A DNA stretch of 64,000 bases, taken from contig JAPLTG010000033.1 in NCBI GenBank assembly GCA_026398255.1, forward strand, positions 1 through 64,000, written 5' to 3'. Source of the DNA: Verrucomicrobiota bacterium (GTDB taxonomy: Bacteria > Verrucomicrobiota > Verrucomicrobiia > Chthoniobacterales > Terrimicrobiaceae). The position numbers and the translations under genes are program-made. Under the pieces are notes generated by a model. That model was not told where the DNA came from. It saw only the letters and a list, made by a program, of their open reading frames with translations, and did not search any database. This document shows positions 1,312 through 50,944 of this stretch, piece after piece. Position 1 is the first letter of the stretch. Every line of letters begins with the position of its first letter.

Positions 1312-3957
1312 ATGAACCGCTACCGCATCGGCATCGACCTCGGCACCACGAATTGCGCCTTGGCGTTTGTGCCCGCCGAGTCGTCGGAGGGTCGCAGCAC
1401 CATTCTAGAAATTCCGCAGGCTGAGACGGATCACTCCAGCGCCTCGCACGAAACGCTCCCTTCTTTTCTCTACCTCCCGCCCGCCAGTCGCGATTGGGAA
1501 GTTGGGGGCTTCGCCCGCGCTCGGGCAGCGGAAGTTCCCGGTCGCGTCATCCACTCGGCGAAATCCTGGCTCGTCCATCACGCCGCCGACCGCCGGGCAA
1601 AGTTCCTCCCGCTCGGTTCGGGCGAGATTCCCCCAACCGAACAACTCAGCCCCGTTGAAGCCCTCTCGACACTCCTCCAAAAACTTGCCGCCTCGTGGAA
1701 CTCCCTTCACCCACACGCCCCGATTGCCGAGCAAGACCTCGCGATCACCGTCCCTGCTTCTTTCGACCCCGCCGCCCAGCAACTCACCCTCGAAGCCGCG
1801 CGCGGAGCGGGTTTTCCCGAATCCACCATCCTGCTCGAGGAGCCCCAGGCGGCCTTCTACGCCTGGTTGGAACAATCCGACCTTCCCGCAACCGGAACAA
1901 AAACCCACATCCTTGTGGTCGATATCGGCGGCGGCACGACCGACCTCAGCCTCTTCTCCGCCGAGCAAAAACCTGACTCCCCGCTACCACGCCTTCACCG
2001 CATCGCCGTGAGCGACCACCTGCTCCTCGGCGGCGACAACCTCGACATAGCCCTCGCCCATTTTCTCGAGGAAAAACTCACCCCAGGCTCGCAGTTGCCA
2101 CCCACCTCATTCGCGCAACTCCTCGCCCTCAGCCGCGACATCAAGGAGAGCGCCCTCGCCTCCGAACACCCTCCCGAAAAATCCTGGCCCGTCGCCGTGG
2201 CCAAGCCCGGAGCCTCGCTCCTCGCGGGAACGCTCCGTGCCGAGGTCTCCTCGGCCGAGATCAACCGTCTGCTCCTCGAAGGCTTCTTTCACCCGGTTGG
2301 CGCCGGGGAGAGACCACTTCGCAGCACCCCAGGCCTCCGCGAAATGGGGCTGCCCTATGCAAAAGATCCCGCCGTCACCCGCCATCTCGCTGATTTTCTA
2401 CGCGACCGCCCGCCGATCGATTTCCTCCTCTTCAACGGCGGCCTCACGAAGTCACCAGCGATTCGCCAGCGCATTTTAGAAAACCTCGCCCGCTGGCAAC
2501 CTGACCACACGCCTGAGGTCCTAGAAAACGCCGACCCCGACCTCGCTGTCGCCCGCGGAGCAGCTCGCTTCCTTCACTTGCGAGCCACTGGCGATTCCTC
2601 GCGCATCGAAGCCGGAGCTTCCCACGCCTACTACATTTCCACGGGCGAAAATTCCGCACTCTGCATTCTTCCGCAGGACGCCCCGCCGGAAAAGGAACAC
2701 GCCGCTGCTCCTCAAAACCTGCGTGCGCTGGTGGGAAAACCCGCCTCGTTCCACATCCTTCGAAACCCCCGCCGATCCGCTGACCAACCCGGCGATATGG
2801 TCAGCACGGAGGCCGAGGGCTTCACCGAATTGCCCGCGTTGGAAACGATTCTCACGCCGCCCGCCGGCCAAAACCTCCCGCGCGACCCGAGTCTCCGCGT
2901 CTCGCTGCGCACCACCCTCCGATCCACCGGCCTGCTTCGGGTGGAATTGCTCAGCGCCGAGCCGGAGTTGCGCTGGCCGCTGGAATTCTCCCTGCGGGGC
3001 AAAAACTCTCCATCCTCAAAAAAATCAGCCGACCGCTCGGATGCCGTCACCCTCGCCGGCCAACAACTCACGGCCCTCCTCGATCCCTCGCGCAAGACCC
3101 GCCAAAAGCTCACCGCCAACACGATTTTCACCGCAGGAGAAAAATCCCTCGGCGCACGCAAGTCGGACTGGAGCGGCGGCATCGTGCGTCAGCTTTTCGA
3201 CCTCTGGCTTGAGGCCGCTGAGCATCGCCACGCCTCAGCGGAGCACGAGGAAACCTGGCTGCACCTCGCCGGTTGGTTCTTGCGTCCCGGTTGTGGAATG
3301 ACCGGCGACCCCGAGCGCGTCGCCGCCCTTGCCCAAATCCTCGCCACGCCACCGAAATTTCCCAACGGCTCGGTGAAAATCCAGCGCTGGATTTGCTCCC
3401 GCCGCATCGCCGCCGGTCTCGATCCCGCTCAATCCCTTGCGATTTGGATACCTGCCGCCGCAGAGTGGAAAGACGGCGCGAATCCCTCCGCCGAAATCGC
3501 ACTGCTCGCCGGCTCCTTGGAAACCCTCCCCGCCGAATACCGCGCCGCAATCGCCCGACGCCTTGCGCTCGCCATCACCTCGCAACCCGCCAACCCAGCC
3601 TACTGGAAAGCCCTCGGCCGCCTGCTCTCGCGTGTTCTTTTCCACGCTGGCGCCGAGCAAATCCTCCCTCCCGACCTCGTGGAAGAACTCTGGCAACAAC
3701 TCGCCGACACCGACCCCGGCGAGTCCCTCCGCCCCGAGGCCGCCGCCTGCTGGCTCCGCGCCGCCCGCCTCACTGGCCTCCGCCCGGTCGATGTTCCCAA
3801 ATCCTCCCGCCAGCAAATCGACTCACTTCTGAAATCCTGGGACATCCCCGAGGTTCGGCGCCGCGTTCTCCACGAAGCGATCCCCCTCGCCACCTCCGAC
3901 CAAACCGGGCTTCTTGGCGAAGCTCCGCCACCAGGCCTCACCCTCGACCAACCATGA
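1312..3957 (+). CDS. Hsp70-family protein, long DnaK-like variant (DUF3731-type C-terminus)
   Basis: An 881-residue actin-fold ATPase of the Hsp70 superfamily. The N-terminal phosphate-1 motif IGIDLGTTNCALAF is at residues 6-19, the phosphate-2 motif VVDIGGGTTDLSLF lies near residue 203-216, and the adenosine-side motif LLFNGGLTKSP near residue 368. The ATPase part is about 430 residues with insertions. The C-terminal half does not look like a normal DnaK peptide-binding domain and lid; it is a helical, Trp- and Arg-rich region of the type annotated as DUF3731 in long bacterial Hsp70 relatives. It is not the housekeeping DnaK. The stop overlaps the start of the next gene (ATGA), so chaperone and exported protease are translationally coupled. 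Partner proteins and clients are unknown. Confidence 0.9.
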   Translation: MNRYRIGIDLGTTNCALAFVPAESSEGRSTILEIPQAETDHSSASHETLPSFLYLPPASRDWEVGGFARARAAEVPGRVIHSAKSWLVHHAADRRAKFLPLGSGEIPPTEQLSPVEALSTLLQKLAASWNSLHPHAPIAEQDLAITVPASFDPAAQQLTLEAARGAGFPESTILLEEPQAAFYAWLEQSDLPATGTKTHILVVDIGGGTTDLSLFSAEQKPDSPLPRLHRIAVSDHLLLGGDNLDIALAHFLEEKLTPGSQLPPTSFAQLLALSRDIKESALASEHPPEKSWPVAVAKPGASLLAGTLRAEVSSAEINRLLLEGFFHPVGAGERPLRSTPGLREMGLPYAKDPAVTRHLADFLRDRPPIDFLLFNGGLTKSPAIRQRILENLARWQPDHTPEVLENADPDLAVARGAARFLHLRATGDSSRIEAGASHAYYISTGENSALCILPQDAPPEKEHAAAPQNLRALVGKPASFHILRNPRRSADQPGDMVSTEAEGFTELPALETILTPPAGQNLPRDPSLRVSLRTTLRSTGLLRVELLSAEPELRWPLEFSLRGKNSPSSKKSADRSDAVTLAGQQLTALLDPSRKTRQKLTANTIFTAGEKSLGARKSDWSGGIVRQLFDLWLEAAEHRHASAEHEETWLHLAGWFLRPGCGMTGDPERVAALAQILATPPKFPNGSVKIQRWICSRRIAAGLDPAQSLAIWIPAAAEWKDGANPSAEIALLAGSLETLPAEYRAAIARRLALAITSQPANPAYWKALGRLLSRVLFHAGAEQILPPDLVEELWQQLADTDPGESLRPEAAACWLRAARLTGLRPVDVPKSSRQQIDSLLKSWDIPEVRRRVLHEAIPLATSDQTGLLGEAPPPGLTLDQP

Positions 3958-4829
3958 CCCTCCGAGTCGCGATTCTTTCCACTCTCTTCGTCAGCGTTTG
4001 CCATGCTTCGGAACCCGTGTTTATCGATGATGCCAAGATCGAGCAGGATTTCATCGATCAACTCTCCGCCCTAGCCAAGAAAGAGGACATTCTCACGATG
4101 CGCCGAGCCGAAGTCGCCCTGAAAAAATCCCATAGTCGCCAAGTTTCGATTCCCGAAATCCCAACCAAAAACTCCGCCGAGAGCCCGTCCTCGCTTTACC
4201 GGCAATGCGCTTCCTCGGTGGTTTCCATCGGGTCCATTTTTCAATGTGAAAAATGCGAGGAGTGGCATCACGGGGGCGCGGCGAGCGGTTGGATTGCTTC
4301 TCCCGACGGTCTCATCGTCACCAACGCCCATCTTTTCGAAAACGGCAAAGACGACCCGCTGGCTGTGATGACGCTGGATGGCGAGATTTTCCCGGTGAAG
4401 GAAATCGTCGCCGCCGATGTGGCGAAAGATATCGCCATCCTCCAAATCGACCCCGGCAGCAAAACCCTCCGCGCCCTGCCGCTCGCGAACTCAGCGGAAC
4501 CCGGCGAGGAAGTTCATGTCATCAGCCACCCACAGGGCCAGTATTATTGCCTCACCAGTGGCAAGATTTCGCGATTCCACCGCGACCAGTTGAAGGAAGA
4601 CGAACCACCGACCGATTGGATGAGCATCACAGCGGACTTCGCCGGAGGAAGTTCCGGCGGCCCTGTCCTCAACCAAAATGGCGAGGTCGTCGGCATGGTC
4701 GCCAGCACGCTCACGGCCTACTCGGAGTCTTCCGATTGTAAAACCCACCCCGGGCCCGATGTGCAAATGGTCTTCAAGGATTGCATCCCCCTCCCCTCGC
4801 TGCGGGCAATGTTCGAGCCGAAAGATTGA
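3954..4829 (+). CDS. Exported trypsin-like serine protease (S1C/HtrA-like, no PDZ)
   Basis: A 291-residue serine protease. The chosen ATG at 3954 overlaps the Hsp70 stop and gives a signal peptide of about 21 residues ending in CHA-SEP; the frame is open much further upstream but that is Hsp70 coding sequence. The catalytic triad is visible: His126 in TNAHLF, Asp159 in AKDIAIL, Ser234 in AGGSSGGP. The chain ends soon after the protease domain, so there is no PDZ domain, unlike DegP/DegQ. A CEKCEEWHHGG loop before the catalytic His is unusual and could bind a metal or form a disulfide. Expected to act in the periplasm. Coupling to a cytosolic chaperone gene is odd and suggests a shared stress role. 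Confidence 0.9.
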   Translation: MTLRVAILSTLFVSVCHASEPVFIDDAKIEQDFIDQLSALAKKEDILTMRRAEVALKKSHSRQVSIPEIPTKNSAESPSSLYRQCASSVVSIGSIFQCEKCEEWHHGGAASGWIASPDGLIVTNAHLFENGKDDPLAVMTLDGEIFPVKEIVAADVAKDIAILQIDPGSKTLRALPLANSAEPGEEVHVISHPQGQYYCLTSGKISRFHRDQLKEDEPPTDWMSITADFAGGSSGGPVLNQNGEVVGMVASTLTAYSESSDCKTHPGPDVQMVFKDCIPLPSLRAMFEPKD

Positions 4830-5509: not shown

Positions 5510-5886
5510 AGGTTTTGATTTTTACTGGGGCCGGAGGAAATCGGTGCGGATTCGAAAAGCAGGTCGCTGGATGTCGAAAGCGGGACGCCGATGCAGGGAG
5601 TATTTTCTGCAAGTATGGCATCCGATGAAGCCGTCCAGTCCGAGATCGCTGCCCACTGCTCGATCTCCGCTGCGGTGTGTATTTCGTTTTTTGGGATGAC
5701 GGAAAAGGCAAGCAGTGCGGCAGCCACAAGAAGGGCGGCTGCGAATGCGAAGGGCTTCCATCCAAATGCGGACGAGGCTTTGGGTGCTGCCGCCTGCTTG
5801 CGGAGCACGCGCTGAAAGCCCGGCGTATTACTCGCATCCTGCCGCCTGGCTTCGTCGAAGAGTTTTTTGAGTGTGTGGTCAGTCAT
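5506..5886 (-). CDS. Probable single-pass anti-sigma factor
   Basis: A 126-residue protein with a basic N-terminal region (residues 1-42), one hydrophobic segment (about 46-65, FAFAAALLVAAALLAF) and a short periplasmic tail of about 60 residues. Its start overlaps the ECF sigma gene by 8 bases and its stop overlaps the Spy-like gene, the usual arrangement for a sigma factor, its membrane anti-sigma factor and a periplasmic sensor. I see no zinc-binding HXXXCXXC motif, so it is not a classic ZAS-type anti-sigma factor. Identification rests on position, size and topology rather than on a recognised domain. Confidence 0.6.
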   Translation of the reverse strand: MTDHTLKKLFDEARRQDASNTPGFQRVLRKQAAAPKASSAFGWKPFAFAAALLVAAALLAFSVIPKNEIHTAAEIEQWAAISDWTASSDAILAENTPCIGVPLSTSSDLLFESAPISSGPSKNQNL

Positions 5887-6436
5887 GGAATTGTCCGGTT
5901 AGTTTGAGAAGTTGGCCGAGCTGCTTCTTGGCGCGGTCATAGTGTGTGCGGGCCGAGCCGAGTGAGACGCCCATTGCCTTGGCTGAGGACTCGACGGTGA
6001 GGTCTTGGTAGAAAACGAGGTGAAGGATTTCCTGCTGGCGGCGCGGAAGTTTGGCGAGCATGGAGCGGAAGAGCTCGATACGTTCCGAATCTTGAAGGGC
6101 CTCGCCATTGTCAGCAGGTTGGCAATCCTTCTCGTGCTCTTTTTGATAGCTGCCCAGCCGGAGAAAGCGAATCCAGTTGCGGCGTCTCTCGCTGGCTGCC
6201 GTGTTACGAATGACCGCAAAAAGCCAGGTCTTGAAGGCCGCACGCCCGTCGTAGCGCGCTCGGCCTTCCAGGATTTTCTGGTAAACAGTCTGTAAGATAT
6301 CCTCCGCATCGGTGTGGTTCGAGGAACAGCAGCTCAAGGCCCAGCCGTAACTCATGGCATGGTGCTGCTCGAGGGCATCGCGCAGCCATGTCTCATCGAC
6401 ATGGGTAGCTTGCATCTCTTGCAGTTCATCGTTCAT
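5879..6436 (-). CDS. ECF-type RNA polymerase sigma factor
   Basis: A 185-residue sigma-70 family factor of the extracytoplasmic-function type. Region 2 covers about residues 25-95, with the DAEDILQTVYQKIL stretch of region 2.2 and FKTWLFAVIRNTAASERRR of regions 2.3-2.4. Region 4 covers about 125-180, with LPRRQQEILHLVFYQDLTVE followed by a helix-turn-helix (AKAMGVSLGSARTHYDRAK). Region 3 is absent, as expected. It heads the operon with the probable anti-sigma factor and the Spy-like protein. The upstream region shared with the divergent peroxidase gene holds two facing copies of one promoter-like word, so it may control itself and the peroxidase. Confidence 0.9.
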   Translation of the reverse strand: MNDELQEMQATHVDETWLRDALEQHHAMSYGWALSCCSSNHTDAEDILQTVYQKILEGRARYDGRAAFKTWLFAVIRNTAASERRRNWIRFLRLGSYQKEHEKDCQPADNGEALQDSERIELFRSMLAKLPRRQQEILHLVFYQDLTVESSAKAMGVSLGSARTHYDRAKKQLGQLLKLTGQFHD

Positions 6437-6456
6437 GGCATTGGTCGCATCTCAAC

Positions 6457-6523
6457 GCGCTTTATATGACGGGGGATTTTCAAAAAATTTTTCAGCCTCT
6501 GATTTTCTTTGTCATATAAGCGC
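6457..6523. promoter_or_regulatory. Inverted GTCATATAA(A)GCGC words in divergent promoter region
   Basis: Bases 6511-6523 read gtcatataagcgc on the plus strand; the complement of 6457-6470 reads gtcatataaagcgc on the minus strand. The two words face away from each other, 40 bases apart, one toward the peroxidase gene and one toward the ECF sigma operon. Each is placed at a plausible promoter distance from its gene and contains a TATAA core. They may be matching -10 regions of two promoters read by the same sigma factor, or a two-site operator. I cannot identify a shared -35 element with confidence. Confidence 0.45.
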
Positions 6524-6603
6524 ATTCGGCAAGCGACGAAGAGGAGAAAGCAATACTGGGCGCAATTGTCCGGGATGCTCAAAAAATCAACCCCTCGATA
6601 AAA

Positions 6604-8841
6604 ATGAACAAGACAACTCTTCTTGGCAGCCTCTCTGCCTTCATGCTCGCAGCCGCGCCTTTCGCGCAGCTTGCAGCCCAAACAACAGCCGCCCCACTTC
6701 GGATCGGCGATCGTGTGCAAACGGTGAAGTCCTCACCCGTTTGGAACAATCCCCCTACCGCCGGTGAAGTCGTCGGCAACCAGCCAGCCCAATCTTCGGG
6801 CGCCCTCACGGCAGGTCCCGTGCGCGCCGGAGACTCGTGGTGGTGGCAGGTGAACTTCAACTCCGGCGCGGATGGCTGGATAGCGGAGCGCCAGATTCGG
6901 AATCCGCAAGGGCAGGCCCCCGGTCCCCGCCTGAGTCCGAGCGCTCCAGCGCCAAGGCCCTTGGCAGTGGATGCTGTGGCGGATGTCCAACCGGCAGGCA
7001 ACAGCACGGTGGATACGGCAAGTATCGTCTTGCGTGGAAAAGTGACGCCAGATGTCTACGCCGCCCCTCTGGTTTCCTTTTTGCTCAATGGCAAAAAGGT
7101 CACACTTGATAAAGAAGGCCGCTTCAGTCTGCCAGTGACGCTGGTTCCCGGCGCGAACAAGTTCACTCTTGAAGTGAGCACGCCGAATCCCCGCCAGCAC
7201 GCGAACCAGATTTCCGCCTATCTCGATGGCTCGGTCATCTATGGATCCGATGCCACGCGCGCCGCTGCCCTGCGGACTTTCAGCGGAGGAAAACTGAAGA
7301 CCAGCGAGGGGAACCTCATGCCACTGAACACTACGGGCCTCGCCAATGCCAACGACGCCCATATTTTTCCAGACAACCAGATGTTCCTCAGCGGCGATGT
7401 GCGGGCTAATGAAAATGTCGAGTTGAGCGCCATCCACACGCTCTTCCTCCGTGAGCATAATCAAATCGCGAGCGCCATTGCTGCGGCAAATCCCTCATTC
7501 ACTGATGAGCAGGTCTTTCAAAATGCCCGGCGCATCGTTGTCGGAGAACTGCAAGTCATCACCTACCGCGAATTCCTTCCGGCGCTCCTGGGCCCAAAGG
7601 CCCTTCGTCCGTATGATGGCTACAAACCCGATGTGAATCCCGGCATCGCCACCGAGTTCTCCACGGCGGCCTACCGCATCGGCCACACGCTCATCAATGA
7701 CGATGTGGAGCTCTTGGACAACGATGGCAACGAGATCGATGAGGCCCTTGAGCTGGCGGAGGCGTTCTTCAATCCCTCTGTGCTTCATGCCGTTGGCCCC
7801 GATCCCTTGCTGAAATACCTCGCCACGGACAAAGCCCAGGAAGTCGATACCCAACTCGTAGGTGGGCTACGCAACTTCCTCTTCGGCCCTCCCGGAGCGG
7901 GCGGATTCGACCTCGCCTCGCTGAATATCCAACGCGGCCGCGACCATGGCCTCTCCGACTACAATACCACCCGCGCCGCCTATGGCCTTCCGAAGGTGAA
8001 ATCCTTCGCCGAGATCACCAGCGATACAGCCCTCCAAGCCAAGCTGCTCTCGCTCTACGGAAGCGTGGATAATATAGACCTCTGGGTCGGCGGCCTTGTG
8101 GAGAACCATCTGCCTGGCTCAAGCGTGGGCGCGACATTCCAACGGATTCTGGTCGATCAATTCGAGCGTCTCCGCGATGGTGACCGGTTCTGGTATGCGA
8201 GGGTCTTCTACGGCCCGCAACTTGCCGCCCTCGAAGCCACTCGGCTCTCGGACATCATCCGCCGAAACACATCGATCACCAAAATCCAAGACAATGTGTT
8301 TTTCTTCGACGACACGACGCTCGCCAGCCTTGTTGCCAAAACCGGAACCCTCCCCGCAGCGCTCCTCAAGCCAGCTCCCGCAAAGGACCTCGGGCCCACG
8401 CTCGATGGCAAACTCAACAACCCGGGCCATACGACCTGGGGCGTTGCCGGAGCAGACCTCATGCGCTTCGCACCGGCCGCCTACAGCGATGGACTCTCGA
8501 CTCCTGCTGGATCCTCGCGTCCGAGCGCCCGTCTCATCAGCAACACGCTCTGCGACCTCACCACGACGCTGCCCAACTCCCGCAACCTCTCGGATTGGAT
8601 CTACGGCTGGGGCCAGTTTATCGACCACGATCTCGACCTCACCACCAGCGGCGATGTGGCCTTCGATATCGCAGTCCCGTCCGCCGACCCCTACTTCGAT
8701 CCCAAGGGAACCGGCACAGCCCAAATCTACCTGAACCGCTCGATCTACGACTCAGCGACAGGAACAACAACAGCGAATGTCACGAAGCAAACCTACACGC
8801 TGAACTACAAACCCAAGCCAACTACCCCACCTCGCAGGTAA
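6604..8841 (+). CDS. Chimeric secreted protein: SH3, split Ig-like domain, circularly permuted heme peroxidase
   Basis: Residues 1-25 form a signal peptide, about 33-100 a bacterial SH3 domain (GDRVQTVKSSPVW, WWWQVNF, GWIAERQI) and about 125-193 an Ig-like domain (LVPGANKFTLEV). Its last strand, NVTKQTYTLNYK, appears only at residues 725-736. The 530 residues between are an animal-type (peroxidase-cyclooxygenase) heme peroxidase in permuted order: LDGSVIYGSD near 210, catalytic Arg283 in REHN, proximal His361 in RIGH, LNIQRGRDHG near 440, then a linker and the normally N-terminal part with NNPGHTTWGVAG and distal His675/calcium Asp676 in WGQFIDHD. All key residues are kept, so it may be active. 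CGAAT occurs in the same codon phase at both joints (7184-7188, 8774-8778). Divergent from the ECF operon; a terminator follows. Confidence 0.85.
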   Translation: MNKTTLLGSLSAFMLAAAPFAQLAAQTTAAPLRIGDRVQTVKSSPVWNNPPTAGEVVGNQPAQSSGALTAGPVRAGDSWWWQVNFNSGADGWIAERQIRNPQGQAPGPRLSPSAPAPRPLAVDAVADVQPAGNSTVDTASIVLRGKVTPDVYAAPLVSFLLNGKKVTLDKEGRFSLPVTLVPGANKFTLEVSTPNPRQHANQISAYLDGSVIYGSDATRAAALRTFSGGKLKTSEGNLMPLNTTGLANANDAHIFPDNQMFLSGDVRANENVELSAIHTLFLREHNQIASAIAAANPSFTDEQVFQNARRIVVGELQVITYREFLPALLGPKALRPYDGYKPDVNPGIATEFSTAAYRIGHTLINDDVELLDNDGNEIDEALELAEAFFNPSVLHAVGPDPLLKYLATDKAQEVDTQLVGGLRNFLFGPPGAGGFDLASLNIQRGRDHGLSDYNTTRAAYGLPKVKSFAEITSDTALQAKLLSLYGSVDNIDLWVGGLVENHLPGSSVGATFQRILVDQFERLRDGDRFWYARVFYGPQLAALEATRLSDIIRRNTSITKIQDNVFFFDDTTLASLVAKTGTLPAALLKPAPAKDLGPTLDGKLNNPGHTTWGVAGADLMRFAPAAYSDGLSTPAGSSRPSARLISNTLCDLTTTLPNSRNLSDWIYGWGQFIDHDLDLTTSGDVAFDIAVPSADPYFDPKGTGTAQIYLNRSIYDSATGTTTANVTKQTYTLNYKPKPTTPPRR

Positions 8842-9012: not shown

Positions 9013-9204
9013 ATCCCTCATCAAAAAGCCAAAACTTTCCCCTTGTTGATTACCACAGTTGCTTCGTGTGAGAAATTATATGTGGGAATTCGCGAAATTT
9101 GCGGGCCGGTGCCTCTCACCGACGGGACGGGCGTTAACCCCCTTATTTTCTCTGCGTCCCAAGGTCTCGGCGGGAGGTTTTTTCAAACGCGCGATTGAGC
9201 GCTG
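9013..9204. other. Intergenic, nothing recognised
   Basis: Between the RluA remnant and the YIP1-type gene. I find no coding region, RNA or clear hairpin with a T run. The words around 9125-9185 (ttctctgcgtccc, ctcggcggg) resemble the short dispersed intergenic repeats seen elsewhere in the window but are not a clear copy. Confidence 0.4.
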
Positions 9205-10059
9205 TTATTTAGGCAGGCTCGCCGACAAAGCCGCTATGCCTAGAGCAATCCCCGCAAATACCCCGCAGCAGAGAAGCAGCATCAAGAGCATCGAAACAAC
9301 CACACGCCATATGTCGGTTCGATGAACCTCCTTGAGGGCGATCACCCCATAGACGAGATAGGCCATCGGGTAGATGTAGCCGCCGCAGAGCGGCACGAGT
9401 TGAAGCACGGAGGTCGCCCCGCCCGAGTAGGCCAAGGCGCGGAAAGTCGCCGCGAAGCCGCCATTCGCCGAGCCGGTAAGCATGAGAAACAAATGCACGA
9501 TCGCCGCCCAAACAAAGGCTCCCGCGATCAGAGCCAGCGGAAGTAACATAAGTGCACCAATGCCGATTCCTATCAGCATTCCTTGGGAAACATCCTTGCC
9601 GACCGCGCCCAAAAACATCTCGGGATTGATCGAGGCGGCGACGAGTTGGTAGCAGATCGCCATGCCGCCACTGATCCAACCGACGATCGTGTAAAAAAAC
9701 AAAGGTCGGCCTATCCCTCCGGTCGGAGGGAGGTTTTGGAAAGTGAAAACCGGCGCGGAAAAAACCTGCCGCACCGTTTCAATGGCAGCGCCAATCGAAA
9801 ACCCGGAAGTCCGCTCCCAAGCGGGCTCGCTGATTTCCGGGTTGGTTTTTTGCGACTCCTCGACAGGAATCGAGTGACTTGACTCGGGCGTTGGCTCCGG
9901 CAAATCCGTGAATGAGGAGAGTGGTTGCCAGGTTGGCATTGGTTCGCGCCACGCAAGATCCGTGGAAAGAAAGCGCCCGGATTTCAAGCCATCAGCGACT
10001 TCCTGATCGTTGAATTTCCCGAGATTTTCGCGGTTGCGATTGATGTGAATCATTGCCAT
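9205..10059 (-). CDS. GYF_2-like plus YIP1-type multi-pass membrane protein
   Basis: A 284-residue protein. Residues 1-50 (IHINRNRENLGKFNDQEV, then GRFLSTDLAWREPMPTWQPL) match the GYF_2-like domain that often starts such bacterial membrane proteins. A Pro/Glu/Ser-rich spacer follows to about residue 85. From about 115 to the end there are five hydrophobic segments (for example FFYTIVGWISGGMAICY, ALMLLPLALIAGAFVWAAIV, VVVSMLLMLLLCCGVFAGIA), the YIP1 arrangement, with a GGAT..L..VPLCGGYIYP turn. Function in bacteria is unknown; a membrane scaffold or transport role is inferred only from the fold. It stands alone on the minus strand. Confidence 0.75.
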   Translation of the reverse strand: MAMIHINRNRENLGKFNDQEVADGLKSGRFLSTDLAWREPMPTWQPLSSFTDLPEPTPESSHSIPVEESQKTNPEISEPAWERTSGFSIGAAIETVRQVFSAPVFTFQNLPPTGGIGRPLFFYTIVGWISGGMAICYQLVAASINPEMFLGAVGKDVSQGMLIGIGIGALMLLPLALIAGAFVWAAIVHLFLMLTGSANGGFAATFRALAYSGGATSVLQLVPLCGGYIYPMAYLVYGVIALKEVHRTDIWRVVVSMLLMLLLCCGVFAGIALGIAALSASLPK

Positions 10060-10204
10060 GGAGACCTTGCCTAGCGGCTTGCAGGCTCCTCTTCAAGCCT
10101 CGCAACATTCCAACATTCTCTGGGGAATCGAAGATTGACATCGCAAGAGTCGCTCAGATTATTCCGCGCCTTGGGGATCTCAAATCCCGTCGCTCTTTTT
10201 TTCA

Positions 10205-10400
10205 GTAAAACCAATCCGTCGGCCTAGGAAAGCAAGGGTGGAAGTCCCTCACTGTCGCGCAAAGGTCAAAGTCCGGGTTCGAACCGGCGGAGAAAACCGC
10301 ACAGCGCCTGCAATGGCGCAACGGCAGCGCATGACTGTCCGTGCCGGGGGTAGTCCTTTCGACTCGGGGGAAGGGATTGTCCAACGACATTCCCCGTTAG
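10205..10400 (+). ncRNA. Cobalamin riboswitch
   Basis: The leader of the TonB-dependent receptor gene carries cobalamin-aptamer words in order: ggtggaagtccctcactgtcg followed by cgcaaaggt (10238-10265), matching the conserved GGUG-AA-UCC and CCCGCAAC-GGU core, a variable stem gtccgggttcgaacc (10271-10285) and cggagaaaaccg (10287-10298), matching the CGGAGACC segment. A stem around 10300-10335 (gcgcctgcaatggcgc) and G- and C-rich segments at 10335-10395 could be the expression platform that hides the ribosome-binding site (aaaaagga at 10403-10410). B12 is expected to repress the downstream receptor. Boundaries are approximate. Confidence 0.75.
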
Positions 10401-10415
10401 TGAAAAAGGACAGAA

Positions 10416-12221
10416 ATGAAAAAAACAACGCTCGCGGCGCTTGTCGCGATTCACAGCGTGGTTTTGGCCCATGGTCAAACCACCGATTCCAACGCAAACC
10501 CAATCATCACGGTTACTAAAAACGCGCAGTCCGACTTCCAAGTCGGCAGTGCGTTTTCCCGGATCGACGCCAAGGAAATCAACCGCTCCCAACAGGGCAC
10601 TTTGCTTGATGTGCTCAACATCACACCGGGCATTCAGGCTATCGAAGCCGGCGCGCCGGGAGGTTTTGGCGAGGTCATGATCCGCGGCAACGGGCCTTCG
10701 CAGTCGCTCATTCTTGTCAACGGGGTGAAGGTTAATACCGGCATCAATCAGGACGCCGCTCCATTTCTGAGCTACGCGGGTTCCAAGGGCCTTCGCAAAA
10801 TCGAAATCGTCCGCGGCCCGCAGAGTTCGCTTTACGGCTCGGAGAGTATCGGCGGCGTTATTTCGCTGGATACCCAGCGCGGGGGCGAGATCGGGAATTT
10901 CGCTTACTTCGCCTCCTACGAGAACCTCTACACGCAGAACGACCGGCCAAATAACGACTACACGGTAAATCGCTACGCCCTGCGCCTCGATTATCAGGCC
11001 TTGGAAAACTTGAGCCTGCGTTTTAACTACACCGGTCAGGTTGGCCAATATCAGGAACCTGGAAGCGTGCGACCGCAGGATTGGGGCAACAACAACCCCG
11101 GGCAGTATACGAGAGGCGAGAGCAATATTTTGAGCCTGATGGTGGATTGGCGGCCGATCGAATTCTGGACTCAAAAATTGACGCTAGGAACCAACTCCGA
11201 GCGCTACACGCTGACTGATCCCGCCTACCCGGGGAACTTCGAGACGGACAGCAACACGATCAACAACGCGACGAACTATTGCACGGACTGGATGAATGTT
11301 TTCCAAATCTCGCGCCAGAATCGGCTCTCGCTCGGGATTTCCTTCGATGCCTACACCGGAGATTTCTACTCCCGATACGGCACAGCACCGGCGACGGTCT
11401 TGCCTACCGAGTCGCAGACCGATGTGGCTTTCTACGCGCAAGACGAATGGGAACTCGTAAAAAACCTCTTTCTCACCGGAGCGGTCCGTTACGACAGTTA
11501 CTCGCAAGCCGGCAGCGCCCTCACTTACCGGTTCACTTCGGCCTACCTCGTTGAGAAAACCAACACGAAATTCCGTGGCAGCTACGGCACTGGCTTCAAG
11601 GCCCCGAGCCTGATCCAGCTTTACTCGCCGAACCCCTACTACCTCGGAAACTTGGATTTGGCCCCCGAGAAGTCGATCGGTTGGGATGCGGGGATCGACC
11701 AGTATTTCTTCAACGAACAGGTGAAACTCAGCGCCACCTATTTCCAGAACTACATCAACAATCTCGTCGTCGTGGAAACCGACCCCGCGACTGGCCTTGG
11801 CCGGTTTGAAAACATGGATACGGCGAACAACAACGGCGTGGAGTTGAGCGCCGAGATGTCGTTGTTCGAAAAATGGAATACGCGGATCGCCTACACCTAC
11901 ACGCAGACGACGGTCATGACCCAGTTTCCTCAGCAGAAAAACATGATCAGCCTCGATACAAACTACCTCCTCACGCCGAAATGGCTGATTGGTTGTGGAG
12001 CCAGTTTTGTTGGTGGACGCACGCAGTTGGATTACATCGCGGGAGAGGTCGTGGAGATGCCCAATTACTCCACGATGCGCGTTTACTCGCGCTATGAGAT
12101 CAACGAGCACGCCGCTGTGATGGCCCGAGTAGAGAATGTCACCAACACGGCTTATGAAACCAACTTGGGCTACCCCTCACTGCCGATTGGATTTTACGGC
12201 GGGGTGGAAATTTCCTTCTAA
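10416..12221 (+). CDS. btuB: TonB-dependent outer-membrane receptor, BtuB-like (vitamin B12 uptake)
   Basis: A 601-residue receptor with a signal peptide (about residues 1-21, LAHGQ), a plug domain (about 30-145: LLDVLNITPGIQ, VMIRGNGPSQSLILVNGVKVN, IEIVRGPQSSLYGSESIGGVI) and a 22-strand-type barrel to an aromatic C-terminus (GGVEISF). The family and length fit BtuB (about 600). The cobalamin riboswitch in front supports cobalamin or another corrinoid as substrate. The energising ExbB/ExbD/TonB set could be the one at 41597-43352. No B12 ABC transporter genes are adjacent. A canonical TonB box is not obvious; ITVTKNAQ near residue 31 is a candidate. Confidence 0.88.
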   Translation: MKKTTLAALVAIHSVVLAHGQTTDSNANPIITVTKNAQSDFQVGSAFSRIDAKEINRSQQGTLLDVLNITPGIQAIEAGAPGGFGEVMIRGNGPSQSLILVNGVKVNTGINQDAAPFLSYAGSKGLRKIEIVRGPQSSLYGSESIGGVISLDTQRGGEIGNFAYFASYENLYTQNDRPNNDYTVNRYALRLDYQALENLSLRFNYTGQVGQYQEPGSVRPQDWGNNNPGQYTRGESNILSLMVDWRPIEFWTQKLTLGTNSERYTLTDPAYPGNFETDSNTINNATNYCTDWMNVFQISRQNRLSLGISFDAYTGDFYSRYGTAPATVLPTESQTDVAFYAQDEWELVKNLFLTGAVRYDSYSQAGSALTYRFTSAYLVEKTNTKFRGSYGTGFKAPSLIQLYSPNPYYLGNLDLAPEKSIGWDAGIDQYFFNEQVKLSATYFQNYINNLVVVETDPATGLGRFENMDTANNNGVELSAEMSLFEKWNTRIAYTYTQTTVMTQFPQQKNMISLDTNYLLTPKWLIGCGASFVGGRTQLDYIAGEVVEMPNYSTMRVYSRYEINEHAAVMARVENVTNTAYETNLGYPSLPIGFYGGVEISF

Positions 12222-39013: not shown

Positions 39014-39859
39014 TCAGACCGAAAATTCCACCTTGGAGCGGTCTTTTTTCTGAAGCGCTCGGCGGAGTTTTCGCAGGGCGATATTCTGAAGCTGACGGAT
39101 GCGCTCGCGGGTGACGCCGAATTTCACCCCGACTTCTTCGAGTGTCTTGGTCTTGTGACCATCCAAGCCGAAACGCGAGTTGATGATTTTGCGTTCCCGG
39201 TCGTCGAGGACATCCAGCAAATCGCCAACCTCATTGCGGAGATCCTTGTCGCGGAGTTGTTCAAAGGGATCCTGCGCCTCGTCATCGCCGATGATATCGC
39301 CAAGCGAGGAATGGTCACCGTCGCCGAGCGGTTGATCGAGCGAGGTGGGACGAATCGCCGCACTTTTCAGCGACGCGACCTTGGCGGCTGCCATGCCAAC
39401 TTCCTCGGCCAATTCCTCGTCGGTGGGCTCGCGACCCAATTCCTCGGTCATTTGATTGGAAACCCGGCGAAGCTTGGCGATTTTATCGACCAAGTGAACG
39501 GGCAGGCGGATCGTTTTGCTCTGATTGGCCAGCGCACGCTTGATGGATTGTTTGATCCACCACGCCGCGTAGGTGCTCAGCTTGCCGCCTTTTTTGGGGT
39601 CAAACCGCTCGACCGCTTTCATGAGGCCGATATTGCCCTCGGAAATGAGGTCCAAGAGCGGGAGACCGAAATTGCTGTAGTCGCGCGCGATTTTGACGAC
39701 CAAACGGAGGTTAGAGCGGACCATGATGGCGCGCGCCTCTTTGTCGCCGCGCTTGATGCGACGGGCTAGTTTTATCTCATCCTGCACAGTGATCAGGGGA
39801 TATTCTCCGATCTGCCGCAGGTAGAGTTGCAAGCCGGTGTCGATGTCTTCGAATGCCAT
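39014..39859 (-). CDS. Sigma-70 family RNA polymerase sigma factor (RpoD/SigA-like, short)
   Basis: A 281-residue factor from the ATG at 39859 (MAFEDIDTGLQLYLRQIGEY). Region 1.2, region 2 (LRLVVKIARDYSNFGLPLLDLISEGNIGLMKAVERFDPKKG, split here by convention, with STYAAWWIKQSIKRAL), region 3 and region 4 (DDRERKIINSRFGLDG and TLEEVGVKFGVTRERIRQLQ) are all present. Region 1.1 is absent. The motifs are those of the primary-sigma group; it may be the housekeeping factor of this lineage or a group 2 relative. A 130-base spacer separates it from hisI upstream. Confidence 0.92.
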   Translation of the reverse strand: MAFEDIDTGLQLYLRQIGEYPLITVQDEIKLARRIKRGDKEARAIMVRSNLRLVVKIARDYSNFGLPLLDLISEGNIGLMKAVERFDPKKGGKLSTYAAWWIKQSIKRALANQSKTIRLPVHLVDKIAKLRRVSNQMTEELGREPTDEELAEEVGMAAAKVASLKSAAIRPTSLDQPLGDGDHSSLGDIIGDDEAQDPFEQLRDKDLRNEVGDLLDVLDDRERKIINSRFGLDGHKTKTLEEVGVKFGVTRERIRQLQNIALRKLRRALQKKDRSKVEFSV

Positions 39860-47344: not shown

Positions 47345-47841
47345 GCGACCGATTTCGCTTCGACCTTTCCCGGGCCCTCGTCATTGCGGGTTTCATTTTC
47401 TACATCCCCGCAAATTTCCTGCCGGTCATGACCATCACCATCACCGGTGAGGTGGAACCACTCACTGTCATGGGCGGCGTTTGGGAACTTTATGAAACCG
47501 GTCTCGCTCCAGTCGCTCTCATCGTTTTCCTGGCCAGCGTAGTAGTTCCCCTCCTGAAGCTCTCGATCATGGCATGGATCCTCGTCCTGCACGGCACCGA
47601 CATCCACCGCCAGCGCCGCATGGAACTCCATGGATTCCTTCTGAAAATCGGCACCTGGGCCATGATCGATATTTTCCTCCTCTCGGTCCTCACCGCCGTC
47701 GGTCAACTCGGCATCCTCGCCAGCGTGACTCCAGAACGCGGCGCCTTGTTTTACGCTGCCATGCTGATCTCGAATGTCCTTGCGACGGATATTTACAAGC
47801 CTTGGTTGATCTGGCAGGAATCCGAACCCCAAACTTCATGA
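47341..47841 (+). CDS. pqiA: PqiA-family membrane protein, second half
   Basis: A 166-residue protein with a TTG start at 47341 set by overlap with the first half (TTGA). It has four helices, including ALVIAGFIFYIPANFLPVMT, the GGVWELYETGLAPVALIVFL motif, and WAMIDIFLLSVLTAVGQLG, that match the second PqiA domain. It lacks a zinc ribbon. The stop overlaps the start of the MCE gene (ATGA). Splitting of PqiA into two coupled genes suggests a heterodimer. Confidence 0.85.
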   Translation: MSDRFRFDLSRALVIAGFIFYIPANFLPVMTITITGEVEPLTVMGGVWELYETGLAPVALIVFLASVVVPLLKLSIMAWILVLHGTDIHRQRRMELHGFLLKIGTWAMIDIFLLSVLTAVGQLGILASVTPERGALFYAAMLISNVLATDIYKPWLIWQESEPQTS

Positions 47842-50129
47842 GCAACCTTTCCAAAACCGACCACGGCCAGGTCGTCACGGTTCACCGCCGAGGCATTGCT
47901 TGGGTATGGATTTTTCCCGTCCTCGCCGCGCTGGCGACCACTTGGTTGTTTTTTGCCCAGTGGGCCTCGCAAGGCCCCGAAATCGAAATCGTTTTTGACG
48001 AGGCCCCGGGAATCGAGCCAGGAAAAACCAGCCTATATTATCGTGGCGTCAATTCTGGAACTGTTCAAGCCGTCCGAATTCAAGACGACCTCCAAACGGT
48101 GGCAGTCAAAGTTCGCCTCGAGGGCTTCGCCTCAAACCTTGCCACCGAGGAAACCAAATACTGGATCGACCGCCCCGTTATTTCCCTCACTGAACTCACC
48201 GGCCTCGAATCGATCGTGCGCGGAAACTCCCTCCAAGCAGGAACTCCTGGTGGAAAAGGCCAATATCAATTCATCGGACGCCCGAAGCCCCCAATCATCG
48301 CTCCCGACTCGCAGACATTCAGCTTTTGGCTCGATGGAGCCCAAATTTCCTTCCTCTCGCGCGGCACCCCGGTTTACCACCGCGGCGTCAAAGTGGGCGT
48401 CGTCTCCCAAAAAATCCTCTCACCCGACGGTCGCGCTTCGCTCCAAGTTTCTGTCGAAGCCGCCTACCGTGATTCCATCCGCGCCAATTCGCGCTTTTGG
48501 TCTGTGCCTTGGACCTCTGTGACCCTCGGCGCGGGAGGTTTATCGATCGATGTCCCCGGCGTCGAATCCCTCCTCCATGGGGGGGTGGCCTACGACAACT
48601 TCGGAGCCACCGGAAATCCTGCGGAGCCCAATTCCCGCTTTGAGTTTTTCCAAAACGAAAGCGCCGCCCGTGCTTCCGGCGAACCGTTGACCATCAATTT
48701 CCGCGATGCCCGGGGACTTCGCCCAGGGCAGACAGCTGTATGCTACCTCGGTTATCCCATCGGAATCCTTGACTCCGTCACTGCGGACCCCGCGAACCAA
48801 AACATCCGCGCCACCATACGACTCCAGCCGCAATTCCAAAACCTCGCGAAAACCTCCACCGCCTTCACTCTCGTCCGTCCTCAGATTTCCCTCGAAGGCG
48901 TCAGCGGACTGGACACACTCGTCACCGGCGAGTTCCTCGCCCTTGAGCCAGGAATCGGCGGCGAACCTGCCACGATTTTCACCGGACGATCCGTTGGTGA
49001 TCAAGAATGGCGCCGCATTCAAGCCGAACAAAACGGCCTCAAAATCCGACTCACCGCCGCTAACCTCCCCAACATCGACAAGGGAGCCCCGGTTTACCAC
49101 CGAGGCATCACCGTGGGCACGGTTCTCGACAAAACTCTCGATGCCAAAAACCAGCCCTCCCTCGATATTGCCATCCGCCCCGAATTTCGCTCGAGCCTCG
49201 CCGTCAATTCTCGCTTCTGGCGTGTCCCCGCGACCTCCATCAAAGCCGGAGCGGGCGTGCTCCAAGTGGACATCGCCGGCGTCGAATCCCTCCTGCGCGG
49301 CGGGATTGCCTTCGACACCTTTGCCACCAAAGGCCAGGAGGCCCAAGGCGGCGAGTCGTTCCGTCTTTTTGATGACGAGCAAGCCGCCCGCGCCCTGTCC
49401 TCGCCGATCCGCATCCGGTTCGATAGCGGCCGTGGACTGGTCGCCGGTCGCAGCCAAGTCCGCTACCTCGGTGTGCCGATCGGCCTCGTGGAAAGTGTGG
49501 AGCCAAAAAGCGGATACATTTTTGTGAATGTCCGGCTCGATGAAGGCTACGACTTCCTCCGGCGCGAGGGCTCCATTTTCTCAATCGTTCGCCCGAATAT
49601 TTCCCTCCAAGGCATCACTGGCCTAGAGACTCTGGTCAGCGGCGTTTACATCGAAGTCGTCCCCGGTTCGTCATCCAAAACCTCGGATTCCTTCGTGGGG
49701 GTTTCCAGCTTTGAATACGACAATGTCATGCCGACCGGCTTGAACATTTTCCTGACCACGCCCAACAGCCCGATCGGAGAGGGAACGCAGGTCTTTTACA
49801 AAGGAGTTCCCGTCGGCCAGGTCACGGAGAAAAATCTTTCCAGCGATGGACGCGAGGTCGTCTTTCGCGTCGTGATCGATCGCAAATACGATCAACTCGT
49901 CCGGGCCAATTCCCGATTCTGGGACTCGAGCGGACTCAAAGCCTCTGTGGGCATTTTGAAATTCCGAATCCAAACCGAGTCGAACCTTGCCCCAGCCGGC
50001 CAAGTTTCCTTCGCCACCCCCGATGGCCCCGCAATGGGCGCCCCAGCTAAGAGCGGCGAGAAATTCATCCTCAACGCCACGTCAAAACCGGAGTGGTTGA
50101 ATTGGAATCCTTCGATTCCCGAGGACTAA
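47838..50129 (+). CDS. pqiB: PqiB/LetB-like protein with six MCE domains
   Basis: A 763-residue protein with one N-terminal membrane helix (IAWVWIFPVLAALATTWLFF) and six MCE (MlaD) repeats starting near residues 45, 160, 283, 400, 524 and 634. Each has the IxFxxAxGLxxGxxxVxYxGVxVGxV pattern, for example SLYYRGVNSGTVQAV, TPVYHRGVKVGVV and VRYLGVPIGLVESV. MCE rings stack into a lipid tunnel across the periplasm: E. coli PqiB has three and LetB seven. Six repeats predict a long needle. It is the last gene of the PqiA-PqiA-PqiB row. Confidence 0.92.
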   Translation: MSNLSKTDHGQVVTVHRRGIAWVWIFPVLAALATTWLFFAQWASQGPEIEIVFDEAPGIEPGKTSLYYRGVNSGTVQAVRIQDDLQTVAVKVRLEGFASNLATEETKYWIDRPVISLTELTGLESIVRGNSLQAGTPGGKGQYQFIGRPKPPIIAPDSQTFSFWLDGAQISFLSRGTPVYHRGVKVGVVSQKILSPDGRASLQVSVEAAYRDSIRANSRFWSVPWTSVTLGAGGLSIDVPGVESLLHGGVAYDNFGATGNPAEPNSRFEFFQNESAARASGEPLTINFRDARGLRPGQTAVCYLGYPIGILDSVTADPANQNIRATIRLQPQFQNLAKTSTAFTLVRPQISLEGVSGLDTLVTGEFLALEPGIGGEPATIFTGRSVGDQEWRRIQAEQNGLKIRLTAANLPNIDKGAPVYHRGITVGTVLDKTLDAKNQPSLDIAIRPEFRSSLAVNSRFWRVPATSIKAGAGVLQVDIAGVESLLRGGIAFDTFATKGQEAQGGESFRLFDDEQAARALSSPIRIRFDSGRGLVAGRSQVRYLGVPIGLVESVEPKSGYIFVNVRLDEGYDFLRREGSIFSIVRPNISLQGITGLETLVSGVYIEVVPGSSSKTSDSFVGVSSFEYDNVMPTGLNIFLTTPNSPIGEGTQVFYKGVPVGQVTEKNLSSDGREVVFRVVIDRKYDQLVRANSRFWDSSGLKASVGILKFRIQTESNLAPAGQVSFATPDGPAMGAPAKSGEKFILNATSKPEWLNWNPSIPED

Positions 50130-50260
50130 TTGCCCAACCTCTCGCCGACTCGGGTTTTTATTCTAAACCCGCGCATCCATCGGCCGATTCACTATACAGG
50201 GGCTTCTATCCAGCAGCCACTCGACAGCGGAACGGAATCCGCAACCCAACCGACACGGAT

Positions 50261-50944
50261 ATGTCATTCACCATACACAGCCAGCCTGCCGCCGCTTGTC
50301 CAACACTCGGCGTCCAGGAGAGAAACGCGCAAGATCGACGCCACCCGCATCGTTCGGCGAATCACGGGGAACTGCCCGGCGATTCCGTCAGCGACCAAGG
50401 TGTCACCGGCCAAGCGCAGGTTTCTTCGGCTATACGGCGCGCTCAGGACTCGATTGCAGTCCTGAGCGACGCGCTGATTTTCCTGCAGACCCAAGACCAA
50501 GCTCTTGCGCATCTGCAGGACCTTTTTCCATCTCAGGCTGCGATCGACCCCCAGGTTCTTGCGTCGTTCGCGGCCGAAAGTTTCAACCACATCAGCCTCT
50601 TTGCCCCAACCAAAGACTCGGACACCATCCGCTTCGAGGATTTGGAAACACAAGATGCCGCCGAGGTGGAACGCCCCGCCTTGCTCGCCAGCGAAACCCT
50701 CGCCGAGCGCCTTGCTGAAGCCCGTGAAAAAAACCACCGCGAGCAATTGCACATCGAGAGCATGATGGAATTCGACCGCCAGCACGCGATCTCCGAGGAA
50801 TTCCACCTCGGCCACCTCACCACCCAAGTCGAGGCCTCCCGCGCCACCGACATTTCCCGCCAAGCCCTCCTCCTCCAAGGCCGCACCGCTCTCGAAATCC
50901 AAGCGAACGCCAACCAAGCCTCCGTCCTCCGCTTGTTTCACTGA
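50261..50944 (+). CDS. Helical protein with flagellin-like terminal segments
   Basis: A 227-residue protein from the ATG at 50261; an earlier start at 50093 would overlap PqiB. The first 45 residues are disordered. Two helical segments look like the D0/D1 helices of flagellins: SSAIRRAQDSIAVLSDAL with FLQTQDQALAHLQDLF (about 58-98), and at the C-terminus RATDISRQALLLQGRTALEI followed by QANANQASVLRLF, very like the flagellin C-terminal (T/N)xxQxLxQAGxAxLAQANQxPQxVLxL pattern. There is no central variable domain. No flagellar gene is near. It may be a minimal flagellin-like filament or cap protein, or the likeness may be convergent coiled coil. Confidence 0.5.
   Translation: MSFTIHSQPAAACPTLGVQERNAQDRRHPHRSANHGELPGDSVSDQGVTGQAQVSSAIRRAQDSIAVLSDALIFLQTQDQALAHLQDLFPSQAAIDPQVLASFAAESFNHISLFAPTKDSDTIRFEDLETQDAAEVERPALLASETLAERLAEAREKNHREQLHIESMMEFDRQHAISEEFHLGHLTTQVEASRATDISRQALLLQGRTALEIQANANQASVLRLFH

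Follow-up and report, generated by a model that had tools for sequence, protein, structure and literature searches.

The locus examined here raises the question of whether a short protein whose ends resemble those of flagellin is a flagellin relative at all, and, if it is, what such a protein would do where no flagellar gene adjoins it. The window is a stretch of 64,000 nucleotides at the start of one contig from a Verrucomicrobiota genome (G000), which has 2,604,041 bases in 44 contigs and is rated 100% complete. One uninterrupted open reading frame in the window runs from ATG to TGA and translates to a protein of 227 amino acids with a predicted mass of 25.0 kDa, here called P0001. A longer version beginning at an upstream GTG is not supported, because 13 of 13 homologues start at the aligned ATG after a conserved leader. 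A sequence-only reading had proposed that the protein could be a reduced filament protein or a decoy-like secreted subunit. The features discussed below are collected in Table 1.

Table 1. Features of the P0001 gene and its leader, with positions in the window.
Feature	Position	Strand	Basis
Sigma-28 (FliA)-like promoter box: TAAA, 15 nt, GCCGATTC	50164..50190	+	Predicted; 10/12 consensus positions, end 70 nt before ATG
Leader hairpin, 5-bp stem, loop ACGGAA (CsrA-type ANGGA in loop)	50227..50242	+	Paired in 23 leaders; match to model R2
Second ANGGA (ACGGA), ribosome-binding position just before ATG	50255..50259	+	Sequence
Divergent flagellin homologue, 227 aa	50261..50944	+	Family profile, hhalign, shuffles, homologues
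N-terminal D0 segment, degraded (~residues 12-45; limits set by us)	50294..50395	+	Identity, composition, pLDDT <50
N-terminal D1 helix, retained (IRRAQ...FLQTQDQAL)	50396..50524	+	Identity 0.34, mean BLOSUM 1.18, flagellin positions 46-85
C-terminal D0 helix, retained (~residues 187-227), putative FliS-binding end	50819..50941	+	Identity 0.29, mean BLOSUM 1.22

When P0001 alone was used as the query, no Pfam family was matched at E<=10, so the cut-offs of PF00669 and PF00700 were not reached, and nothing was found at E<=10 in NCBIfam or the PDB. Because these searches were empty, the likeness to flagellin could have been due to chance. Searches of Pfam with single family members gave a Flagellin_C match in 5 of 12, all weak (best E 0.094), and weak matches to some coiled-coil families. 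The homology of P0001 shows at the level of the family profile, since single-sequence matching does not reach the flagellins. A profile of 12 members gave 54 PDB matches at E<=10, the first 52 of which were flagellin chains (best E 7.3e-8), one of them a FliS-flagellin chain. The matches fell mostly in the C-terminal D0 helix, and the name FlgL was absent from all 54. An HMM of six flagellins from the same genus matched all 12 homologues, with P0001 scoring 29.3 bits and the weakest member (L020) 15.3 bits, whereas 2000 shuffles of P0001 reached at most 9.6 bits. Alignment of the family profile with the six genus flagellins by hhalign ran end to end over 233 columns (probability 99.4, E 1.8e-21). 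In a tree with seven genus flagellins, the 13 family members fell on one side of a branch supported in 100/100, several forks inside the family being less well supported. The P0001 family thus consists of true flagellin homologues over D0-D1, as detected through the family profile. The likeness of the C-terminus to D0 and of IRRAQDS..FLQTQD to a D1 helix, which had been noticed in the sequence alone, reflects true homology, and the word reduced suits a protein with a short centre and a degraded N-terminal D0 (ND0). The lack of a flagellin profile match, by which that proposal could have fallen, holds for the single sequence in Pfam, NCBIfam and the PDB and is false for the family profile, for which coiled-coil bias likewise fails as an explanation.

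Matches to P0001 at E<=1e-3 were obtained in 14 of 97 genomes, its own included, all belonging to the same genus. Twelve of these 14 contained a full-length homologue, and the remaining matches were read as flagellins. A profile built from the 12 homologues (A1) added a thirteenth full-length homologue in G010 (148 bits), giving 13 of the 16 genus genomes; among the eight genus genomes with a completeness of 90% or more and a contamination of 5% or less, seven carried the gene. One homologue, in an uncultured MAG of Spartobacteria (a class of Verrucomicrobiota), was a 97% identical copy, and the others were 26-38% identical to P0001. No full-length family match was found in G005 (97% complete, with flagellins), G008 (87%) or G009 (86%). 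Short C-terminal matches to A1 in G009 (contig C39) and G005 (contig C21) are possible remnants of the family; a partial match on contig C38 of G005 was rejected as a member, being a true flagellin start interrupted by the contig end. While A1 finds flagellins within the genus, it gave no match at E<=1e-8 in the 10 genomes (G016-G025) that represent other genera of the taxonomic family, where flagella may occur in this genus alone.

The segments kept by the family were compared between its 13 members and seven genus flagellins, using flagellin numbering and domain limits that we set ourselves. Identity between the two groups was 0.42 in residues 1-11, 0.16 in ND0 (12-45), 0.34 in 46-85, 0.10 in 86-110, 0.19 in 111-200, 0.19 in the C-terminal D1 segment (CD1, 201-238) and 0.29 in the C-terminal D0 segment (CD0, 239-279). 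The genus flagellins of contigs C5 and C42, homologous end to end with the family, have kept ND0 (0.73 identity among themselves), whereas it is degraded in the family. Positions 86-110 and CD1 are as diverged as ND0, which is set apart by its composition: 12% hydrophobic residues in the family versus 23% in flagellins, 16% proline and glycine versus 5%, and 24% basic residues versus 11%. The best-kept long segments are CD0 and the first D1 helix. In most members the alignment with flagellins ran without gaps through roughly the first 85 positions, the extreme N-terminus (MS-x-x-I) was conserved in 13/13, Q214, L223, R224 and L225 were invariant in 12 homologues, and the asparagine of the family QAN motif was present in 9/13. 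Judged by these alignments, the helix pattern of ND0 has disappeared from the family together with any long central insert, and a single D1 helix and the helix of CD0 remain. An AlphaFold model from two near-identical sequences was mostly helix at low confidence (mean pLDDT 59.7, pTM 0.27), with residues 1-51 at pLDDT <50 and a single long helix at 133-226. The N-terminus had been described as disordered, which agrees with both the low pLDDT and the scarcity of hydrophobic residues. The retention of CD0 and degradation of ND0 are seen at the sequence level, the structure model being weak for the pairing of the two. The core of the filament, formed by D0, requires both terminal helices, and for this reason the suggestion of a reduced filament protein has become less likely.

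The upstream region of the gene was examined for control signals. When scored against a consensus that we take to be that of sigma-28, the best-matching TAAA-N15-GCCGATAA-like box ended 69-71 nt before the ATG in 13/13 family genes and matched 9-12 of the 12 consensus positions. The score of the box in the window was reached by 3/1000 shuffles of the 160 nt upstream; the weakest box, in G006 (9/12 positions), was equalled by 66/1000, and the other 12 genes by at most 13/1000. The genome contains three exact TAAA-N15-GCCGAT sites, one of them the box in the window, versus six for a reversed control pattern, so the pattern by itself is not significant. The weight of the predicted box as evidence lies in its fixed position in 13 genomes.

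Between this box and the ATG sits a predicted GGA-loop hairpin, and the same leader was found at nine genus flagellin genes. The loop held ANGGA in 12 of 13 family leaders (ACGGA) and UCGGA in G003, and a GGA stood one base before the ATG in 13/13. The leader alignment comprised 23 sequences, namely 13 from the family, nine from flagellin genes in six genomes, which were picked after their likeness to the family leaders had already been noticed, and one from another open reading frame in the C5 flagellin array. All 115 pair cells over the 23 leaders were standard pairs, with double-sided changes in 3/5 pairs. None of 500 shuffles reached the observed number of cells paired, the double-change cells or the covariation score, whereas the number of double-changed pairs was reached by 103/500 and the number of pair types by 86/500. 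Among the family leaders considered separately, double changes occurred in one pair alone, in the related G001 and G014, and the other covariation comes from the flagellin leaders and the array leader. A covariance model trained on all 23 leaders (R1), including that of the P0001 gene and four C5 leaders, was run on G000, with 150 out of 1711 candidates being scored, and hit seven places at E<1e-4: the P0001 gene, five sites on C5 and one at the end of C26. Two of these places, at the ends of C5 and C26, were outside the training set, and in each case what follows is a flagellin start truncated by the end of the contig.

A second model (R2) was trained on the nine flagellin leaders alone and run with default filters on 15 sources totalling 163,713 bases, made up of the window, two stretches of C42 and the remaining 12 family loci. 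It returned 13 matches at E<=10, one for every family leader and none elsewhere (E 2.4e-9 to 3.7e-3); the match in the window lay at 50217-50263 (E 6.9e-5). No match at E<=10 occurred in the C42 stretches, which hold a 388-aa flagellin (L043) and an flg-type operon. The C5-array flagellins share the hairpin leader with the P0001 family; the 388-aa flagellin has no match to it. Excerpts from PMC4894983 describe two stem-loops in the C. jejuni flaA leader, both with ANGGA in the loop and the second covering the ribosome site. We infer that CsrA binds the family leader. The family genes carry predicted control signals like those of the true flagellin genes of the genus, and the case for a flagellar role draws most strongly on the sigma-28-like box together with the CsrA-type leader, neither of which the sequence-only reading mentioned. 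What is new here is the combination of a predicted sigma-28-like box at constant distance with a flagellin-type GGA-hairpin leader in 13/13 family genes.

The components that would act on such signals are encoded in the genome: flagellins, FliS, FliW, CsrA and a FliA-class sigma factor, all on contigs other than that of the window. FliS and the FliA-class sigma factor (above its curated cut-off) lie on C42, where the adjacent genes for FliW and CsrA come after one for a Flagellin_N/C protein. We take this protein for FlgL, a name that was given by eye, as were the flg-type operon and the names of the other flg genes on C42. FlgL (HAP3) is a Flagellin_N/Flagellin_C relative, just as the P0001 family is a flagellin relative; it is encoded as a distinct FlgL-like protein in the flg-type operon, apart from the P0001 gene.

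The P0001 gene itself is flanked by PqiA and MlaD genes and by an AIR-synthase-type gene, probably ThiL. The four adjoining proteins of the window were scanned (PqiA, MlaD, AIR-synthase type and one without a match) and others inspected by eye, and the absence of flagellar neighbours held within the flanks read. Among the 12 other loci, the neighbourhood is common to the P0001 gene and its 97% identical sister only; the genes beside the copies of other clades differ, and neither inspection by eye nor BLAST comparison of the loci pointed to a flagellar one. The MlaD gene (47574-50129, + strand) is an 851-aa open reading frame with six MlaD stretches that follows the PqiA gene, and its listed start overlaps the PqiA frame and is probably too far upstream. 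A sigma-factor-like gene at 39050-39655 (- strand) scored 106.5 bits with the FliA/WhiG model, below the cut-off of 189.6.

Taken with the segment comparison, the control signals suggest a filament-linked job other than that of a filament brick. We tentatively prefer, at a little under even confidence, the reading that P0001 is a co-expressed, FliS-dependent, exported, non-structural flagellin paralogue of the late flagellar class, functionally like Campylobacter FlaC. The proposal of a decoy-like secreted subunit is close to it. FliA would transcribe the gene after hook completion, and CsrA would block translation until FliW lifts the block, so that the protein would appear in step with filament production. 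FliS would then bind the C-terminal helix and deliver the protein to the export gate of the flagellar type III system. As ND0 is gone, the protein would find no place in the core of the filament and would be secreted by way of the flagellum, much like Campylobacter FlaC and the Vibrio flagellin-homologous proteins. Excerpts from PMC5466977 report that C. jejuni FliS needs CD0, that loss of the last 10 residues abolishes FliS binding, that FliS binds FlaA, FlaB and the secreted FlaC, and that FliW, whose binding maps to the N-terminal subdomain of flagellin, does not bind FlaC. If FliW behaves here as in C. jejuni, the protein would also escape FliW. It is by this comparison, the family keeping the FliS end and degrading the other, that the FliS-dependent, exported reading is favoured.

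The likeness to FlaC concerns published descriptions (excerpts from PMC4863622 and PMC5466977) and implies neither a common origin nor a host-modulating role. FlaC is of similar size (26 to 28 kDa versus 25 kDa here), largely lacks D2/D3 as do the 13 homologues of 227-242 aa, is kept in many flagellated species and varies in gene context between less related species, as the P0001 family does; both have a flagellin-type C-terminus. We infer that the family works like FlaC, yet it is not filed as a FlaC member, because its ND0 is not conserved and its secretion is a prediction. Two differences count against the preferred reading: ND0 and CD0 are relatively conserved in FlaC (excerpt from PMC5466977), whereas the family ND0 is only 0.16 identical to the genus flagellins, and the flaC mRNA of C. 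jejuni shows hardly any enrichment with CsrA (1.2-1.3x; excerpt from PMC4894983), whereas the P0001 gene has a predicted CsrA-type leader. Vibrio FlaE/FlaF offer a second likeness by description, being flagellin homologues beyond the need of the filament that are excreted via the flagellin channel and have a biofilm role (excerpt from PMC6692518). No described relative in Verrucomicrobiota appeared among the literature matches listed, judged by title.

There are two serious doubts about the FliS-dependent, exported reading. The export signal of E. coli/Salmonella FliC comprises residues 1-47 or 26-47 (excerpt from PMC6337784) and overlaps the degraded ND0, so that export could be lost. FliW of B. 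subtilis and T. pallidum has been reported to need an asparagine in the flagellin C-terminus (work cited in an excerpt of PMC5466977), and the loss of ND0 therefore need not remove FliW binding; the QAN asparagine of the family may correspond to that residue. Three further points weigh against the reading, namely that ND0 is not the sole diverged part (0.10 in 86-110 and 0.19 in CD1), that G005, nearly complete and equipped with flagellins, lacks a full-length family match, and that YN00 puts dN/dS as high as 0.40 in one pair.

The reports of C-terminal FliW binding lowered our confidence in an exported protein and raised that in the most serious alternative, which we still regard as rather unlikely: a cytoplasmic regulator, that is, a flagellin-derived mimic that competes with flagellin for FliS, or for FliW if the latter binds C-terminally, and so tunes filament output. 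Its own CsrA-type leader would close a feedback loop. Such a regulator would fit the retention of CD0 beside an ND0 that is degraded and basic where the known export signal lies, the leader held in common with the flagellins, the adjacent FliW and CsrA genes, and the same C-terminal FliW reports. However, an N-terminus of MS-x-x-I in 13/13 would be needless in a purely internal mimic, and no comparable case was seen among the literature matches listed. Unlikely too, and placed slightly lower, is the proposal that a flagellin gene has turned into a dedicated member of a FliS/FliW-CsrA homeostasis circuit that reports or brakes filament production; it would have kept the chaperone-binding end, discarded the polymerising end and retained the flagellin-type sigma-28 and CsrA control.

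A minor structural subunit at a special site of the filament or of a junction appears improbable. Homology that spans the whole of D0-D1, gapless at its start in most members, and the predicted co-regulation with flagellins would be expected of it, but an ND0 rich in proline, glycine and basic residues and poor in hydrophobic ones, together with diverged 86-110 and CD1 segments, should disturb filament packing, and an FlgL-like protein is encoded separately. That the gene is a decaying flagellin pseudogene is very improbable: the fast divergence apart from the 97% sister and the degraded ND0 could be so explained, but frames are open in 13/13 genomes, box and leader are kept in 13/13, and the selection test rejected it (dN/dS 0.11-0.24 by NG86 in seven pairs, some with a common member; 0.11-0.40 by YN00 in the same pairs, up to 0.40 in one). 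Because of the NG86 values, the family gene is taken as a real gene under purifying selection. A chance coiled-coil likeness, to which the empty single-sequence searches, the weak Pfam coiled-coil matches and the mostly helical low-confidence model might point, is barely credible in the face of the shuffles, the flagellin chains among the PDB matches and the common leader.

The family represents a natural separation of flagellin's jobs, with the putative chaperone-binding end kept, the core-packing end degraded and flagellin-type control retained, and it could help to tell apart the regions of flagellin that act in export, in sensing and in assembly. The predicted signals also suggest that Verrucomicrobiota have a CsrA-FliW-flagellin circuit with a covarying leader; nothing relevant to it was seen in the titles and abstract starts of the literature matches listed.

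Several observations concern the flagellin arrays themselves. In the C5 array (L042), a 143-aa open reading frame at 4068-4499 has a flagellin-like start and end and lacks the middle; it has the same hairpin leader (R1 E 3.4e-5, the leader being in the R1 training set). Its only match in the 15 other genus genomes was a weak one in a longer frame (E 0.004), and it was rejected as a second family member, having no orthologue in the genus and no Pfam match. Two flagellin copies of the same array (~1690-2486 and 2875-3692) are broken at nearly the same place in ND0 and share an identical 5' block at the break. C5 and C26 both end within flagellin starts. The broken copies likely reflect assembly collapse of repeats, and a biological cause may also account for them. 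The genomes G010 and G011 seem to contain large flagellin arrays (on contigs C2 and C258, respectively), with 28 and 22 matches to A1, which are totals for the whole genomes and include several matches per gene. Two large open reading frames (5625-7598 and 9160-11526) adjoin the flagellin array on C5; we take them to resemble TPR and O-GlcNAc-transferase-type proteins, possibly concerned with flagellin glycosylation.
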